The notes under the pieces were generated by a model, which saw nothing but the letters and a program-made list of their open reading frames with translations, ran no database searches and was not told the DNA's origin. A stretch of DNA of 20,534 nucleotides from a virus. The position numbers and the translations under genes were made by a program. Positions within the stretch are counted from its first letter, which is position 1, and the number at the start of each line of letters is the position of its first letter. The DNA is taken from positions 1 through 20,534 of the IMG/VR virus record IMGVR_UViG_3300042691_022575, one strand, 5' to 3'. Shown here one piece after another: positions 9,594 through 20,534 of the stretch.

Positions 9594-12500
9594 ATGAATT
9601 ACGTTGGCTTACATGTCCATACACACTATTCATTAATGGATGGTGTTGCTACTCCAGAAGAATACGTGAACCGTGCAGTTGATCTTGGTATGCCTGCAAT
9701 TGCTATCACAGATCACGGTACTTTATCTGGGCATAGGGAACTGCACCGTATTGCAAAAGCAAAGGGCATTAAGCCAATACTTGGCATAGAAGGCTATATG
9801 ACAACCAGTATGGCTGATAAGAGAGCAAAGGCAGATCGTACAGATCCACTTGATCAAAATTATCATCATATAGTTCTTCTTGCCAAGAACCAACAAGGTT
9901 TAGAAAATCTTAATAAGATTAATGAAATTGCTTGGACTGAGGGTTTTTTTAGTAAGCCAAGATTTGATTTTGAAACACTCGCAAAATATAAAGAAGGAAT
10001 TATTGTAACTTCTGCCTGCCTTAGTGGTTGGATAGCAAAAGCGGTAGAACTAGATGAGTTAGCTACAGCAAAAAAGCATGTAGCATGGTTTAAAGAGCAA
10101 TTTGGCGATGATTACTATATTGAGGTAATGCCACATAATCCTGAAAAAGTAAATAAGGGATTAATTGATTTAGCAAAATCTATGGGTGTAAAAATTGTAG
10201 TTACTCCAGATTGCCATCATTCTGACACTAGTCAAAAAGAAATACAAGAGTTAATGCTTATTCTTAATACTCATGCCAAGTTACAAAAAGATGTAACATA
10301 TGATAAATCCAAGAAACACAAAGATATGATGGATAGATTAGACTATCTTTATGGTGCAGATCGTCAAATGTCTTTCCGTTCTTTTGATATTCATCTTCTT
10401 TCATATGAAGAAATGAAAGATGCTATGGCAAAACAAGGTATTAATAATGAAGAAATGTTTCAGTCTACTATTGATATCTATAACAAAATAGAAGAGTATG
10501 AGATTCACAATGGTCTTGATTTACTGCCTGCACAATATCGTAAGCCTGCAGAAGAATTAAAAAAGCTTGCGCTTGAAGGTTTAGCAGAGCGTGGTTTAGA
10601 TAAAAATCAAGAATATCTAGATCGTCTTGATGAAGAATTAAAAATTATTGGAGATAAAAAATTTGAACCATATTTTTTAGTTGTTCGTAACATGCTCAAC
10701 TGGGCAAAAAAGGAAGGAATTATGGTTGGTCCAGGTCGTGGATCATCAGCTGGTTCTTTGCTTTGCTATTCTATTGGAATTACAGATATTGATCCAATTA
10801 AGCACGGTTTATTATTTTTTCGTTTTATTAACCCTGAGCGCAACGACTTCCCTGATATTGACTCAGATATTCAAGATTCTCGTCGTGATGAAGTAAAAGA
10901 TTATCTTGTTAGACAATATAGACATGTTGCTTCTATTGCTACATTCTTAGAGTTTAAAGATAAGGGTGTTGTGCGAGATGTATCAAGAGCATTAAATATT
11001 CCACTTTCAGATGTTAATAAAGTTTTAAAGACCGTAGATACTTGGGATGATTTTTGTACATCAAAAAACTCTGCTTGGTTCCGTGAAAAGTATCCAGAGG
11101 TTGTTGCATATGGTGACCAATTACGTGGCAGAATTCGCGGTACTGGTATTCATGCTGCTGGTGTTGTAACAAGTAAAGAACCTATTTTTAAATATGCTCC
11201 AATGGAAACTCGCAATGTTACTGGAGCAGATGAGCGTATACCAGTTGTGGCGGTAGATATGGAAGAAGCCGAACGAATTGGACTTATTAAGATAGATGCC
11301 CTTGGTCTAAAAACTCTTAGTGTTCTTAAAGATACTCTTGATATTATTCAAGATAGATATGATAAAAAAATAGATCTTTTAGGAATAGACATGGATGATA
11401 AAAATGTTTATCAAATGTTGTCTGATGGGTATACAAAAGGTGTATTTCAGTGTGAAGCAACTCCATACACAAATTTACTAGTTAAAATGGGTGTTAAAAA
11501 TTTATCTGAGCTTGCTGCTTCTAATGCTTTAGTTCGTCCAGGAGCTATGAATACTATTGGTAAGGACTATATTCTTCGTAAGCATGGAAGACAAAATATT
11601 AATTATTTGCATCAAATATTAAAGCCATTCACTGAAGAAACATACGGATGTATTTTATATCAGGAACAAGTTATGCAGGCTTGCGTTGAACTTGGTGGTA
11701 TGACAATGGCAGAAGCAGATAAAGTTCGTAAGATTATTGGAAAGAAAAAAGATGCTAAAGAATTTGATGTTTTTAAGGATAGGTTTATTAAAGGTGCTTC
11801 TAAGTATATTGCTCCTAATGATGCTCTTGATTTATGGCATGACTTTGAAGCGCATGCGGGATATTCGTTCAACAAGTCTCATGCGGTTGCTTATTCTACG
11901 CTCTCGTATTGGACGGCATGGTTAAAGTATCACTATCCACTAGAATTTATGTTTGCATTATTAAAAAATGAAAAGGATAAAGATGCACGAACTGAATATC
12001 TTATTGAAGCGAAAAGAATGGGGATTAGCATTAAACTACCTCACATTAATGATTCGGATATTGATTTTAAAATTGAAGGTAAAGGTATTAGGTTCGGACT
12101 CTCGGCAATCAAATTTATCTCTGATAAGATTGCAGAACGATATATATCGGCACGACCTTTTAAGTCTTTTGCAGAGGTTGAAGAGTTCACATTTACTAAA
12201 GGAAATGGTGTAAACTCACGAGCACTACAAGCAATGAATTCTATTGGAGCTATTACATTTCCAGACAACCCAGCCAATCCAGAGAAGGTTAAGGAAAACT
12301 TATACGAGTACCTTAACCTTCCTGAATTTAATATGCCAATACCACAACATTATTATGCATATATAAATGATATTGAAGAATATGAAGAAAAGGGCGCATT
12401 CATTTTGATGGGTATGGTAAAATCAATTAAGAGATCAAAAGGATGGTCAAGGGTAGAGTTGTTAGATAAAACAGGTAGTGTTGGAATATTTGATGAAGAA

Positions 12501-12872
12501 AATACAACAATAGAGTCTGGTCGTTCATATATTATTCTTGCTTGTGATAATAGGATTGTATCTGCTGTTCCTGTAGATGAAATTAAAGAGTCTAAAGATG
12601 CTCTTGTAAAGTTTTTAAATTATAAGATGTTGCCATATAAAGATGATGAAATGTTTGTTGTTTCATTTAAACCACGAGTTACTAAGGCTGGCAAGAAAAT
12701 GGCATCACTAACATTAGCAGATGCAGGTAGAGATTTACATGCAGTTACAGTATTTCCAACATCATTTGCTAAAGCATATATGAATGTTGAACCAGGAAAT
12801 GTTTATAAGTTTGAGTTTGGTAAAACAAAAGATGGAACAGTAATAATGGAGGATGTAAAAAATGTTGGATGA
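9594..12872 (+). CDS. dnaE: DNA polymerase III alpha subunit (DnaE-type) with PHP domain
   Basis: 1092 residues from ATG 9594 (TTG 9591 is an alternative one codon earlier). The PHP domain (about 1-290) keeps what look like all nine metal ligands: H7, H9, D40, H41, E66, H91, C142, D206, H208. This predicts an active built-in 3'-5' proofreading exonuclease. The polymerase palm has 'GPGRGSSAGSLL' (379-390), 'PDIDSD' (D421, D423) and 'IKIDALGLKTL' (D568) as catalytic aspartates. Thumb/fingers include 'GCILYQEQVMQ' and 'AGYSFNKSHAVAYS'. Then come a helix-hairpin-helix region and two OB-like segments at the C-terminus ('FILMGMVKSIKR', 'ASLTLADAGRD'). I see no clear QxxLF-type clamp-binding motif in the expected place. 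This should be the phage replicase. Bases 11850-12230 use codons unlike the rest of the gene. Confidence 0.95.
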   Translation: MNYVGLHVHTHYSLMDGVATPEEYVNRAVDLGMPAIAITDHGTLSGHRELHRIAKAKGIKPILGIEGYMTTSMADKRAKADRTDPLDQNYHHIVLLAKNQQGLENLNKINEIAWTEGFFSKPRFDFETLAKYKEGIIVTSACLSGWIAKAVELDELATAKKHVAWFKEQFGDDYYIEVMPHNPEKVNKGLIDLAKSMGVKIVVTPDCHHSDTSQKEIQELMLILNTHAKLQKDVTYDKSKKHKDMMDRLDYLYGADRQMSFRSFDIHLLSYEEMKDAMAKQGINNEEMFQSTIDIYNKIEEYEIHNGLDLLPAQYRKPAEELKKLALEGLAERGLDKNQEYLDRLDEELKIIGDKKFEPYFLVVRNMLNWAKKEGIMVGPGRGSSAGSLLCYSIGITDIDPIKHGLLFFRFINPERNDFPDIDSDIQDSRRDEVKDYLVRQYRHVASIATFLEFKDKGVVRDVSRALNIPLSDVNKVLKTVDTWDDFCTSKNSAWFREKYPEVVAYGDQLRGRIRGTGIHAAGVVTSKEPIFKYAPMETRNVTGADERIPVVAVDMEEAERIGLIKIDALGLKTLSVLKDTLDIIQDRYDKKIDLLGIDMDDKNVYQMLSDGYTKGVFQCEATPYTNLLVKMGVKNLSELAASNALVRPGAMNTIGKDYILRKHGRQNINYLHQILKPFTEETYGCILYQEQVMQACVELGGMTMAEADKVRKIIGKKKDAKEFDVFKDRFIKGASKYIAPNDALDLWHDFEAHAGYSFNKSHAVAYSTLSYWTAWLKYHYPLEFMFALLKNEKDKDARTEYLIEAKRMGISIKLPHINDSDIDFKIEGKGIRFGLSAIKFISDKIAERYISARPFKSFAEVEEFTFTKGNGVNSRALQAMNSIGAITFPDNPANPEKVKENLYEYLNLPEFNMPIPQHYYAYINDIEEYEEKGAFILMGMVKSIKRSKGWSRVELLDKTGSVGIFDEENTTIESGRSYIILACDNRIVSAVPVDEIKESKDALVKFLNYKMLPYKDDEMFVVSFKPRVTKAGKKMASLTLADAGRDLHAVTVFPTSFAKAYMNVEPGNVYKFEFGKTKDGTVIMEDVKNVG

Positions 12873-13185
12873 ATTAGCAGAAGAGTTACATAAAACTGCA
12901 GTTAGTAAGGGATTTTGGCGAGATGAAGTAATGTGTGGAGATATTTTTCTTGCTAAACAATGTATGATGATTGTTTCAGAAGTATCTGAGCTTATGGAAG
13001 CAATTCGTAAAGATAAAGGCGAACAAGAAATTGTAATGGAAACAGCAGATATTCTTATTCGTACCCTTGATTTATATGCTGGATTAGTTGAAACTGGATA
13101 TACTACTATATCTCTTGATTATGCCTTACAGGAAAAAGCAAATATTAATAAAGATCGTCCAGAAAAGCATGGGGTAAGATTCTAA
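12862..13185 (+). CDS. MazG-like nucleotide pyrophosphohydrolase
   Basis: 107 residues, ATG 12862 with GGAGG nine bases upstream, overlapping the polymerase gene by 11 bases. The all-alpha NTP-PPase signature is present: 'EVSELMEAI' gives E40-x2-E43, and 'ETADILIRTLDLY' gives E60-x2-D63, the magnesium-binding ExxE...ExxD pattern. Such enzymes hydrolyse dNTPs or modified or alarmone nucleotides to the monophosphate. Beside a polymerase it could clean the nucleotide pool or blunt a host stringent response. The precise substrate cannot be read from the sequence. The TAATG junction couples it to recA. Confidence 0.8.
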   Translation: MLDELAEELHKTAVSKGFWRDEVMCGDIFLAKQCMMIVSEVSELMEAIRKDKGEQEIVMETADILIRTLDLYAGLVETGYTTISLDYALQEKANINKDRPEKHGVRF

Positions 13186-14201
13186 TGACAGTAACTATTG
13201 AAGATGTGTTATCTCAACTAGATCCAAAATTACGTAAGGCAATAATGTCTGGAGATTCTGTTCCAGATACAGAATATGCAGTAACACCAAGTTTTGGATT
13301 GAACCGTGCACTAAATGGTGGCTTGCCTTATGGTCGTCAAGTACTTATCTGGGGATCTAAATCATCTGCAAAATCATCTCTATGCCTTCAAATGATTGGT
13401 CTAGCACAAAAAGAAGGAAAAATTTGTGCTTGGATTGATGCTGAAATGTCATACGATAAAAAATGGGCAGAAGAAATGGGAGTTGATACATCTAAGTTAA
13501 TTGTATCTAAAGCTCGTACTATTAATGAAATGGTAGATGTAGGTGTACAATTAATGGAGGCAGGAGTTGATATGATTGTAGTTGATTCAATTACTTCACT
13601 TCTTCCTGCTATATATTTTGAGAAGGACTCTGATGAACTTAAACAGCTTGAAAACACAAAGCAAATTGGAGCTGAATCTAGAGACTTTAGCAACGCATGG
13701 AAAATGCTTAATTATGCTAATAATAAAATTAAGCCTACTCTCCTTGTCCTTATTAGTCAGTCTCGCAATAACATTAGTGCTATGTATACTAGCCAGCAGC
13801 CTACTGGTGGTCAAGCTACTAAGTTTTATTCCTCTACAGTTATTAAATTATTTTCGTCAGAATCAGATAACCAAGCAATTAAAGGTAAAATAAATGTTGG
13901 TGACAAACTTATTGAAGAAAAAATTGGTAGAAAAGTTCGTTGGGAACTTCAATTCTCTAAAACTTCTCCAGCCTTTCAGTCTGGCGAGTATGATTTTTAT
14001 TTTAGAGGAGATAACCTTGGTATTGACGGCGTTGGCGATCTTGTTGATACAGCAGAACTAGCTGGATTAATAGCAAGAACTGGAGCATGGTATCAACTAG
14101 AAGATGGGACTAAGGTGCAAGGTAGAGATGGACTTATTAGTAGAGTAAGAGAGGATTTGGATTTGCAACAAATGCTAAAGACCAAGTTATCAAATGGCTG
14201 A
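13185..14201 (+). CDS. RecA/UvsX-family recombinase
   Basis: 338 residues. RecA core with Walker A 'GSKSSAKSS' (57-65), in which the usual second glycine is alanine; 'AWIDAEMSYD' with catalytic Glu87 equivalent to E96 of E. coli RecA; Walker B 'DMIVVDSIT' (129-137); and loop L2 'QPTGGQATKFYSS' (205-217), which lines up with the TTTGGNALKFYAS region of RecA. The N-terminal polymerisation domain and the C-terminal domain are short, as in phage recombinases. It should form filaments on single strands, displace the SSB and drive strand exchange for repair and recombination-dependent replication. Starts at the ATG of a TAATG overlap and ends inside the next gene. Confidence 0.92.
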   Translation: MTVTIEDVLSQLDPKLRKAIMSGDSVPDTEYAVTPSFGLNRALNGGLPYGRQVLIWGSKSSAKSSLCLQMIGLAQKEGKICAWIDAEMSYDKKWAEEMGVDTSKLIVSKARTINEMVDVGVQLMEAGVDMIVVDSITSLLPAIYFEKDSDELKQLENTKQIGAESRDFSNAWKMLNYANNKIKPTLLVLISQSRNNISAMYTSQQPTGGQATKFYSSTVIKLFSSESDNQAIKGKINVGDKLIEEKIGRKVRWELQFSKTSPAFQSGEYDFYFRGDNLGIDGVGDLVDTAELAGLIARTGAWYQLEDGTKVQGRDGLISRVREDLDLQQMLKTKLSNG

Positions 14202-17996: not shown

Positions 17997-18498
17997 TGAA
18001 GTAAATAAAGTTGTTGAGGAATATCTTAAGGGAAATGATCCCACAAAAATATCTAAAACATTAGATTTGCCACGAACTCGTGTTGTTGCACATTTAAATG
18101 AATGGAAGGCTATGGCATCTGCAAATGATGCTATTCGTGCTCGTGCTAAAGATGCATTAGTTGCTGCAGATACACATTATACAAAACTAATTCAGCAGGC
18201 ATATGAAGTTATAGATGATGCTACAACTACTGCAAATTTAGCTGCAAAAACACAGGCAATTAAATTAGTAATGGATATTGAATCTAAAAGAATTGATATG
18301 CTACAAAAGGCTGGATTGCTTGAAAATAAAGAACTTGCAGAAGAAATGGTTGAAATCGAACGTAGACAGGAAGTTCTTGTTGGTATTCTTAGAGATATAG
18401 CATCAGAACATCCAGAGGTTCGTGATTTAATTATGCAAAGACTTTCTTCTATTGCTAAAGAAGGAGAAGTGATCACAGTTGTCAGCAATGTTCAATGA
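17959..18498 (+). CDS. terS: Small terminase subunit (putative)
   Basis: 179 residues, ATG 17959 behind GAGGGA. The N-terminal third has an HTH ('NDPTKISKTLDLPRTRVVAH'), which would recognise the packaging site. The rest is long amphipathic helix ('AKTQAIKLVMDIESKRIDML', 'EEMVEIERRQEVLVGILRDI') suited to ring assembly, ending in a short strand-like tail ('EGEVITVVSNVQ'). This is the usual build of phage TerS. The strongest evidence is the 20-base overlap with the large terminase gene. Confidence 0.72.
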   Translation: MTSAELDLVKHLDEVNKVVEEYLKGNDPTKISKTLDLPRTRVVAHLNEWKAMASANDAIRARAKDALVAADTHYTKLIQQAYEVIDDATTTANLAAKTQAIKLVMDIESKRIDMLQKAGLLENKELAEEMVEIERRQEVLVGILRDIASEHPEVRDLIMQRLSSIAKEGEVITVVSNVQ

Positions 18499-20260
18499 TT
18501 TTCTTGAAGCACTTCAAGATAATCCATTTGAAGAAACTCCAGTAGATGTAAAAACATTTGTTGAGTCTCCAGATTATTTGGGACAACCATCACTGTCTTC
18601 AATTCAATATGACATTGTAGAAGCAATGAGTCAGATTTATAAAAAAGAAGACTTACAAATTTTGCTAGGAACAGAACAAGGAGATAGACATTATTCTAAA
18701 TATACAAAAAATGAAATTATTCTTCAACTCGGAAAAGGTTCTGGGAAAGATTTTGTTTCTACTGTTGCTTGTGCTTACGTTGTGTATAAGTTATTATGCC
18801 TTAAGGACCCAGCAAGATATTACGGTAAGCCCAGTGGCGATGCCATAGATATTATTAACGTTGCTATTAACGCAGAGCAAGCCAAGAACGTTTTCTTTAA
18901 AGGTTTTAAAACAAAGATTGAAAAGTCTCCATGGTTTGCTGGAAAATATGATCCTAAAGTAAATTCTATTGGTTTTGATAAATCTATTACAGTTTATTCT
19001 GGACACTCAGAAAGAGAATCCCATGAAGGTCTTAACTTATTTATGGCGGTACTTGATGAAATTTCTGGATTTGCTACAGAAGTAGGAACAGGAAACGATC
19101 AAGGTAAAACTGCTGATAATATTTATAAAGCATTTCGTGGTACTGTAGATTCTCGTTTTCCAGATTTAGGTAAAGTAGTTCTTCTTTCATTTCCTCGTTA
19201 CAATGGAGACTTTATTTCAAAGCGGTATGAAGATGTAATTATGGAAAAAGATGTAATAGAGCGTAGATATAAATTTATTATTAATGAAGATCTACCAGAA
19301 GGACCAGATAATGAATTTGAAATAACTTGGGAAGAAGATCATATTAAATCTTATAAATATCCTAGAATGTTTGCTCTTAAAAGACCTACGTGGGAAGTAA
19401 ACCCTACTAGAAAAATTGATGATTTTAAGATTGCATTTCTTACTGATATAGGAGATGCCATGATGCGTTTTTTATGTACCCCAACATATTCATCAGACGC
19501 TTTCTTTAAACAAAAGGATAAATTAGAAAAATGTATGACTTTAAGAAATCCTATTGATAATCACAGAAGATTTGAATCAAATTTTAAGCCTGATCCAGAT
19601 AAAATTTATTATGTTCATGCTGACTTAGCTCAAGTACATGATAAATGTGCAGTAGCAATTGCACATGTTGAACGCTGGGTAAATATTCAGGTAATTAAAG
19701 ATTACGAACAGGTGGCTCCTATTGTTGTTGTAGATGCTGTTGCTTGGTGGGAACCAAGAGTAGAGGGACCAGTAGATTTATCTGAAGTTAAAAGATGGAT
19801 TATTAATCTTCGCAGAGAAGGTTTTAATATTGGTATGGTTACATTTGACCGTTGGCAATCTTTTGATATTCAACAAGAATTAAAAGCGGTAGGAATGAGA
19901 ACTGATACTGTTTCTGTTGCTAAAAAACATTATGAAGATTTAGCAATGATGATATATGAAGAAAGAATTGCAATGCCCAAAATACCTTTGCTTCTTGAAG
20001 AAATGAGTGAGCTTAAGATTATGAAAAATAATCGTGTAGATCACCCACGTAAGAAATCAAAGGACTTAGCAGATGCCGTTTGTGGGGCGGTATTTGGGGC
20101 AATCTCGCATACAAGTAGAGACTCTAATCTAGAAATTGAGGTTCATACTTGGTCATCTGCCTCCCGACTTGCAGATAAGCAAAGGGCTATGGTAGAATTA
20201 GATTCTGAGGAAATTCCTGACGATGTTCAAGAATACCTTGGTGAATATAAAATAATATAA
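18479..20260 (+). CDS. terL: Large terminase subunit (ATPase-nuclease)
   Basis: 593 residues from TTG 18479, the first start codon after an in-frame stop at 18470, with AAGGAG 13 bases upstream; ATG 18488 is a close alternative. ATPase: Walker A 'LGKGSGKDF' (84-92, Asp in place of the usual Ser/Thr after Lys), Walker B 'MAVLDEISG' (D193, E194), and a coupling-like 'VVLLSFPRYNGD'. RNase H-like nuclease: D382 in 'VHADLAQVHD', D457 in 'VTFDRWQS', and D532 in 'KDLADAVCGA'. It drives DNA into the prohead and cuts concatemers. Length is normal for TerL. A 24-base gap separates it from the last gene. Confidence 0.93.
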   Translation: MSAMFNDFLEALQDNPFEETPVDVKTFVESPDYLGQPSLSSIQYDIVEAMSQIYKKEDLQILLGTEQGDRHYSKYTKNEIILQLGKGSGKDFVSTVACAYVVYKLLCLKDPARYYGKPSGDAIDIINVAINAEQAKNVFFKGFKTKIEKSPWFAGKYDPKVNSIGFDKSITVYSGHSERESHEGLNLFMAVLDEISGFATEVGTGNDQGKTADNIYKAFRGTVDSRFPDLGKVVLLSFPRYNGDFISKRYEDVIMEKDVIERRYKFIINEDLPEGPDNEFEITWEEDHIKSYKYPRMFALKRPTWEVNPTRKIDDFKIAFLTDIGDAMMRFLCTPTYSSDAFFKQKDKLEKCMTLRNPIDNHRRFESNFKPDPDKIYYVHADLAQVHDKCAVAIAHVERWVNIQVIKDYEQVAPIVVVDAVAWWEPRVEGPVDLSEVKRWIINLRREGFNIGMVTFDRWQSFDIQQELKAVGMRTDTVSVAKKHYEDLAMMIYEERIAMPKIPLLLEEMSELKIMKNNRVDHPRKKSKDLADAVCGAVFGAISHTSRDSNLEIEVHTWSSASRLADKQRAMVELDSEEIPDDVQEYLGEYKII

Positions 20261-20274
20261 ACAATGAATAATAC

Positions 20275-20280
20275 AAGGAG
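20275..20280 (+). promoter_or_regulatory. Strong ribosome-binding site of the secreted-protein gene
   Basis: AAGGAG four bases before ATG 20285, in a 24-base AT-only-like gap after terminase. It resembles the site of the ssb gene (AAGGAG-A-rich-ATG). No convincing -35/-10 pair was found upstream, although several TATAAA strings occur. Confidence 0.6.
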
Positions 20281-20284
20281 AAAA

Positions 20285-20534
20285 ATGAATTCATTTAAGA
20301 AAATCGCTCTAGCCATGGTTGCAGCCATGACTACCGCAACAATCGTAGCAACACCTGCAAGTGCTGCTGTAATGACAGTCGCAGTAGATCTTAACGGAAC
20401 AGCAAACACAACTGCTTCCGCTATCGCTACTCCAGCTGCATTGCCAGTACCAGCAGACAACACTGTAGATGCAGCAGATGCACTTAAGTTTGTAGCAACA
20501 GTTGATACAGGAACATCTGTTTCTGTAGTAGCAA
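20285..20534 (+). CDS. Secreted Ala/Thr/Val-rich protein, 3'-truncated by window
   Basis: 83 residues are visible; the frame is open to the right edge. A classical Sec signal peptide is clear: 'MNSFKK' basic start, hydrophobic 'IALAMVAAMTTATIVA', and an AxA cleavage region 'TPASAA' around residues 24-28, in a style common in Actinobacteria. The mature part is rich in Ala, Thr, Val and Asp ('VDLNGTANTTASAIATPAAL', 'DNTVDAADALKFVATVDTG'), beta-prone and without Lys/Asn excess, so its base and codon use differ from the neighbouring AT-rich genes. It may be a phage-encoded surface or secreted protein, or a precursor processed like an S-layer or adhesin domain. Function not known. A signal peptide directly behind terminase is unusual, where portal is normally expected. 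Confidence 0.7.
   Translation, partial: MNSFKKIALAMVAAMTTATIVATPASAAVMTVAVDLNGTANTTASAIATPAALPVPADNTVDAADALKFVATVDTGTSVSVVA

Follow-up and report, generated by a model that had tools for sequence, protein, structure and literature searches.

The window, i.e. the whole stretch of DNA analysed here, is an entire IMG/VR record of 20,534 bases, and the gene that begins at position 20285 is therefore cut off at the contig end. The genes of the window follow the order tail genes, DnaB, primase, SSB, a DnaE-like polymerase, MazG, UvsX, resolvases and the large terminase TerL (positions 18479 to 20260, on the plus strand like the other features of the window given below), which matches the PHROGs family 'terminase large subunit'. 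Past the end of TerL, the first ATG to be preceded by a Shine-Dalgarno sequence is at position 20285, after 24 nucleotides. The Shine-Dalgarno motif AAGGAG (positions 20275 to 20280) can be read directly, and AAGGAG or an AAGGA-type motif occurs at the same place in nearly all relatives. From this ATG an open frame of 83 codons runs to the contig end (positions 20285 to 20534; 83 of about 386 codons), and its translation reads MNSFKKIALAMVAAMTTATIVATPASA up to the predicted cleavage site and AVMTVAV... after it.

The first 27 codons (positions 20285 to 20365) encode a predicted Sec signal peptide whose n-, h- and c-regions can be read directly: a basic n-region MNSFKK, the hydrophobic core IALAMVAAMTTATIVA and TPASA-AVMTV, with the cleavage site at ASA-A in agreement with the Sec criteria (AxA at -3/-1). 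The two alanines, A25 and A27, are invariant across 53 diverse family members, and a simple filter finds a signal-peptide-like N-terminus in this gene only among the 25 genes of the window. The rest of the fragment (positions 20366 to 20534) corresponds to the beginning of a predicted Ig-like domain (about codons 28 to 148 in relatives), as judged from the AlphaFold2 model of the relative L002 and from Ig-like matches in the PDB. Alanine, threonine and valine make up 57% of the 83-residue fragment, while segments of the same length from the other genes of the window stay at or below 40% (954 segments). The initial annotation, which had described an Ala/Thr/Val-rich protein with a Sec-type signal peptide and an AxA site 24 nucleotides after TerL, was thus accurate on these points.

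Relatives of the protein are encoded at no fewer than 527 viral loci in a scan of viral contigs (locus counts take in near-duplicate contigs), the best 80 of them being 84–99% identical over the 83 residues. TerL lies directly upstream in 66 of these best 80 loci, mostly 18–78 nucleotides away, and is 73–92% identical to that of the window. With this many loci and this recurrence of TerL, the gene is neither a chance reading frame nor an assembly joint; a chimeric junction, which the initial annotation had considered at this gap, was ruled out on the same grounds. In most other loci with readable flanks there is a second context, in which the gene comes after a thioredoxin gene and near a signal-peptide-bearing S8 subtilase. 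Each of the 11 large relatives carries exactly one copy. Full-length relatives (56 distinct ones in the first set) are mostly 350–390 amino acids long and supply the full gene that the initial annotation had hoped to read by extending the contig; L002 is the nearest one, with 98.8% identity across the 83 residues that can be compared. What is said below of the window's protein past residue 83 is read from these relatives and, given the swapping described below, its second domain and stalk could differ.

The neighbourhood of the gene contains other genes that deserve a mention. Directly upstream in the second context there are genes for a pyrimidine-dimer glycosylase and a thioredoxin-like protein (L005:9020-9789). 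The S8 subtilase, which has a signal peptide in several phages, is found beside an HslV/proteasome-like gene and near the signal-peptide gene in both contexts (L005:8017-8964, L032:15425-16402, L042:15104-15937 and equivalents). In type A loci the next gene downstream, at about +1.3 kb, encodes a signal-peptide protein with a coiled coil and a PA14 domain (L032, about 12027-14163; L002, from about 10416 onward). In many phages the apparent start codon of this PA14 gene is ATT or ATA, preceded by a strong ribosome-binding site, GGGGGAAAGG; no in-frame ATG, GTG or TTG was seen at that place in these, and some relatives have a TTG there. Downstream of the signal-peptide gene in L003, L005, L027 and L070 there are several related genes per locus (cluster 20), presumably 2-oxoglutarate oxygenase-like, as if they were a repeated family of modifying enzymes.

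It is interesting to compare the locus with that of Streptomyces phage Karimac (Stanwilliamsviridae). The two phages share the order of tail genes, then helicase, polymerase and recombinase, then TerL, and their TerL proteins are 54% identical; by TerL and by a core gene order common to a named member, the phage of the window can be classed as Stanwilliamsviridae-like. The region after TerL is different. In Karimac, where TerL is at 69.4 kb, the genes after it are HNH, hypothetical genes, tRNA genes and FtsK, with no relative of the signal-peptide protein, and the portal and major capsid protein (MCP) genes are at 24.8–29.2 kb, i.e. about 40 kb upstream. In the near-complete relatives G005, G007 and G002 (118–120 kb, unclosed records) portal and MCP are likewise tens of kb from TerL. 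The initial annotation expected a portal or another head gene after TerL, which is mistaken for this lineage, where portal and MCP lie about 40 kb or more away. That the gene itself is a head or portal gene, the outcome that would have overturned the annotation, was also ruled out: it has no match in PHROGs or to any known head family, and portal, protease and MCP are located elsewhere in all three genomes. One of these, G005, contains two distinct major-capsid-like genes near opposite contig ends (L109, positions 115247-116407 of the record, and L104:28-861), which are 43% and 38% identical to the Karimac MCP and are each followed by similar head-completion genes. The head block may have been duplicated in tandem here and the copies may have diverged; in G007 a single such gene is seen.

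A WhiB gene, regarded as an actinophage marker (PMC10202952), is present in 9 out of 11 large relatives, which points to actinobacteria as hosts. No integrase, serine recombinase or reverse transcriptase was detected in the same 11 records, some of which are possibly fragments, and the lifestyle is therefore likely to be virulent.

The AlphaFold2 model of L002, built from 53 diverse relatives, has a mean pLDDT of 82.9; an earlier model from 26 close sequences had reached 61, and it was the diverse alignment that raised the value. The predicted layout is a signal helix, two beta-sandwich domains (residues 30-148 and 150-263), one Ala-rich helix of about 110 residues that forms a stalk (265-376) and a conserved basic tail, WNxKNPKAKVxLVK. 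In structural comparison, domain 2 matches Ig-like domains with Z of about 12 and an rmsd of 2.0 over about 95 residues, for example the Ig-like domain of beta-galactosidase III (Z 12.1, rmsd 2.1 over 98 residues), and the domain pair resembles, at high ranks and with Z of about 10–12, the tandem Ig-like domains of invasin, intimin, FdeC, InvD and the S-layer protein SbsC. The fold is thus predicted to be an Ig-like beta-sandwich. Ig folds are very common and indicate a surface-type architecture, not a function. The likeness to Big-domain surface proteins such as invasin, intimin, FdeC and SbsC lies in the tandem Ig-like domains of the predicted fold; unlike them, the signal-peptide protein is phage-encoded and has neither a significant Pfam match nor an outer-membrane barrel or S-layer anchor.

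Sequence comparison gave no name to the family. Among 26 members scanned against Pfam the best E-values were 0.025–0.046, with no Big family and nothing above the curated cut-off, and PHROGs, NCBIfam and PDB sequence searches gave no significant match to the protein. Nor was there a match for types I, II or III (see below) among named phages (50,697 phage records) or for type I among plasmids, and no description of the family was found in open-licence papers. Past the signal peptide, the protein shows no recognisable domain for cell-wall binding, no sortase motif and no membrane anchor, so that it may be released rather than attached.

The gene seems to be a transcription unit of its own. At 98 TerL-adjacent loci, promoter-like sites cluster at -125 to -100 from the start codon, and 65% of the loci score at least 10 of 12.5, as compared to 5% of control stretches from the same TerL genes. 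The window's own sigma-70-like site (TTGCAG, 18 nucleotides, TAGAAT, with a TG ahead of the -10; positions 20169 to 20198, in the 3' end of TerL) is weaker, with 8.5 of 12.5; these calls are consensus matches, and the site partly overlaps conserved TerL codons. In most relatives an intrinsic terminator is found right 3' of the stop codon, which together with the promoter-like site and the strong ribosome-binding site suggests a single-gene unit. This terminator is relevant to the idea that the protein acts with nearby holin-like proteins and a CHAP endolysin to make the cell wall ready for release. Small membrane proteins, a CHAP endolysin and the secreted subtilase are indeed found nearby in both genome contexts, but a gene with its own terminator probably does not share a transcript with the lysis genes, the predicted structure has no enzymatic fold, and discrete swappable head types would not be expected of lysis factors. 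We regard a function in lysis or envelope opening as rather unlikely.

The codon usage suggests that the protein is probably strongly expressed. In a ranking built on simple ORF calls, the gene has the 5th, 6th and 4th strongest codon bias among about 80 genes in the three near-complete relatives, and MCP and the major tail protein are likewise near the top. The share of AAG among lysine codons is 0.83–1.0 in the signal-peptide gene as opposed to 0.15–0.56 in TerL. GC3 (0.18–0.23) is not raised, i.e. the higher GC of the gene is due to its Ala and Thr codons. The sharp difference in codon choice that the initial annotation had noticed is thus real with respect to synonymous bias in the relatives, which is AAG-rich and like that of capsid genes, but it does not extend to GC3. 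Of the two explanations it offered, selection for high expression is supported by the codon bias, the promoter-like site, the strong ribosome-binding site and the terminator. Host origin is not: besides the GC3 values and the capsid-like bias, the search for homologues in host genomes, two scans that relied on near-exact patterns of 8–9 residues and could miss divergent host genes, found no bacterial relative.

The same data bear on the possibility that the phage captured a host surface protein and uses it to copy the coat of its host. An Ig-like plus helix build is like that of bacterial surface proteins, and the export signal would suit a Gram-positive host; on the other hand, GC3 is not raised, the codon bias is like that of the phage's capsid gene, and the genome scans, insensitive as they are, did not reveal a relative. 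Host mimicry thus appears improbable to us.

A new finding on the family is the variability of the part predicted to be exported. Assigned by identity, the heads fall into three classes, I (that of the window), II and III, which are about 31–53% identical to one another and all occur in both genomic contexts. When head class is compared to a tree of 99 TerL sequences (FastTree), at least 23 class changes are needed; 14 of these, for class I, follow from well-supported branches alone. The phages L004 (class I) and L308 (class II) illustrate this: their TerL proteins are 99.8% identical and their DNA is 98% identical up to nucleotide 80 of the reading frame, in the codon at which the signal peptide would be cleaved; beyond it the heads are very different, and recognisable similarity returns in the helix. 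The shared 5' block ends exactly at nucleotide 80 in 367 out of 517 cross-type pairs, and similarity on the 3' side mostly returns at codons 250–290, near the start of the helix; the pairs are drawn from 90 loci and are not independent, and some breaks fall elsewhere. Exchange also crosses lineages, as the heads of L002 and L005 are 98.5% identical in DNA while their TerL proteins are 57% identical, and the block common to the two is just the gene plus its ribosome-binding site and stop codon.

Since phages with near-identical TerL differ in the head, with breaks at the cleavage site and identity regained at the helix, the head, predicted to be exported, is a swappable cassette, and the signal peptide and the stalk are usually kept. 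In class I, dN/dS values of 0.16–0.22 show purifying selection on the head, and the constraint on the helix is weaker (0.42). Synonymous divergence is lowest in the signal peptide, which would fit a role of this segment as an anchor for recombination. A part that is conserved inside a class and wholly replaced between classes shows the pattern expected of a specificity determinant. The exchange boundary coincides with the predicted cleavage site, which speaks for a functional signal peptide and indicates that selection for change acts on the portion outside the cell. Diversity-generating retroelements, site-specific inversion and prophage immunity were ruled out as sources of the variation, as no reverse transcriptase (RVT_1 in 0 out of 11 relatives, possibly fragment records), integrase or resolvase was found in these genomes. 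A weak test among 20 relatives showed no visible linkage between head type and the identity of one minor tail protein.

The exchange boundary also bears on a further alternative, namely that the product is a decoration or fibre protein of the virion whose N-terminus merely resembles a signal peptide. Phage virions often carry Ig-like domains and coiled coils, structural genes have a similar codon bias, and phage structural proteins are among the BFVD matches. However, the signal peptide is conserved and its AxA site is invariant, head exchange stops at that very site, and the gene is far from the structural block; a virion protein seems to us an improbable interpretation.

Which function would then fit such a protein? 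We start from what was observed directly, i.e. the gene and its conservation, the likely regulatory signals, the codon bias, the predicted modular build and the allele swaps. The initial annotation had suggested that a protein exported to the host surface could block receptors, alter the envelope or assist release, and the head swapping makes an outward-facing role more likely than could be known at that time. A role as an envelope or extracellular protein is the most likely one, and within it superinfection exclusion is best supported, because the phage is apparently virulent, the expression capsid-like and the exchange takes place between near-identical phages. We tentatively propose, as a reading that is quite possible and still short of probable, that this is an abundant Sec-exported protein of a virulent actinobacterial phage that acts in superinfection exclusion or receptor masking. 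The Sec pathway of the host would export the protein during infection, with cleavage at ASA-A, and the mature protein would consist of an N-terminal head of two Ig-like domains, a long Ala-rich helical stalk and a basic tail. Most likely its tail or stalk would retain it at the envelope of the host during infection, and the head would bind something variable on the outside, the best candidates being the surface receptor and the tail of rival phages. The protein would thus act as an exclusion or receptor-masking coat, and phages trade its head classes by recombination, in most cases with the signal peptide and the stalk left unchanged.

Allele swapping suits any outward-facing role, exclusion included, and the partner could as well be a host surface molecule or a grazer. 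We considered that, towards eukaryotic grazers or in the environment, released or surface-bound Ig-like heads might make infected cells and debris adhere or aggregate differently or alter their palatability. The evidence of export, abundance and allele swapping applies here equally, and the secreted S8 subtilase and the signal-peptide PA14 protein belong to the same gene cluster; discrete head types traded by near-identical phages, on the other hand, fit an arms race between phages or between phage and host at least equally well. We consider a role towards grazers or the environment unlikely, and keep superinfection exclusion as our working proposal.

The closest working analogue that we know of, which is not a relative, is CwpV of Clostridioides difficile, an exported cell-surface protein with a constant export and anchor part and discrete types of outer domain; its effect is described as superinfection-exclusion-like, and the antiphage activity resides in the outer domain (PMC4737114). 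The likeness lies in the combination of a constant export part with discrete outer types, as the phage family has three head types and a signal peptide that is usually common. The differences are substantial: CwpV is host-encoded and phase-variable, with a C-terminal repeat domain and an N-terminal wall-binding domain (PF04122), whereas the signal-peptide protein is encoded by a probably virulent phage, its variable head is N-terminal, and its family has no Pfam match to PF04122.

Phages themselves also encode superinfection-exclusion proteins, such as Llp of T5, Sp and Imm of T4 and Ltp of TP-J34, which are lipoproteins or membrane proteins. What they have in common with the gene described here, as far as its predicted export is concerned, is a small phage gene with a product destined for the envelope of an infected cell or a lysogen. 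To our knowledge, neither an Ig-like head-and-stalk build nor swappable head cassettes are known for any of them.

With this work a family that is absent from PHROGs, Pfam, NCBIfam and named phage records has been identified, and its three head classes, which repeatedly replace one another, are new. Capsid-level expression of an exported protein has rarely been imagined for virulent phages. We may speculate, with less confidence than for the exclusion role itself, on a serotype-like system in which virulent actinophages coat infected cells with the exported protein, carry its heads as cassettes on a constant signal peptide and stalk, and so confront rival phages or grazers with a changing surface. 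The near-identical phages with different heads form a natural allele series and, with a concrete gene at hand, a starting point for studying the competition of lytic phages on actinobacteria. If head types decide over superinfection of, or attack on, the infected cell, hundreds of environmental phage contigs would contain a discrete and readable specificity system.
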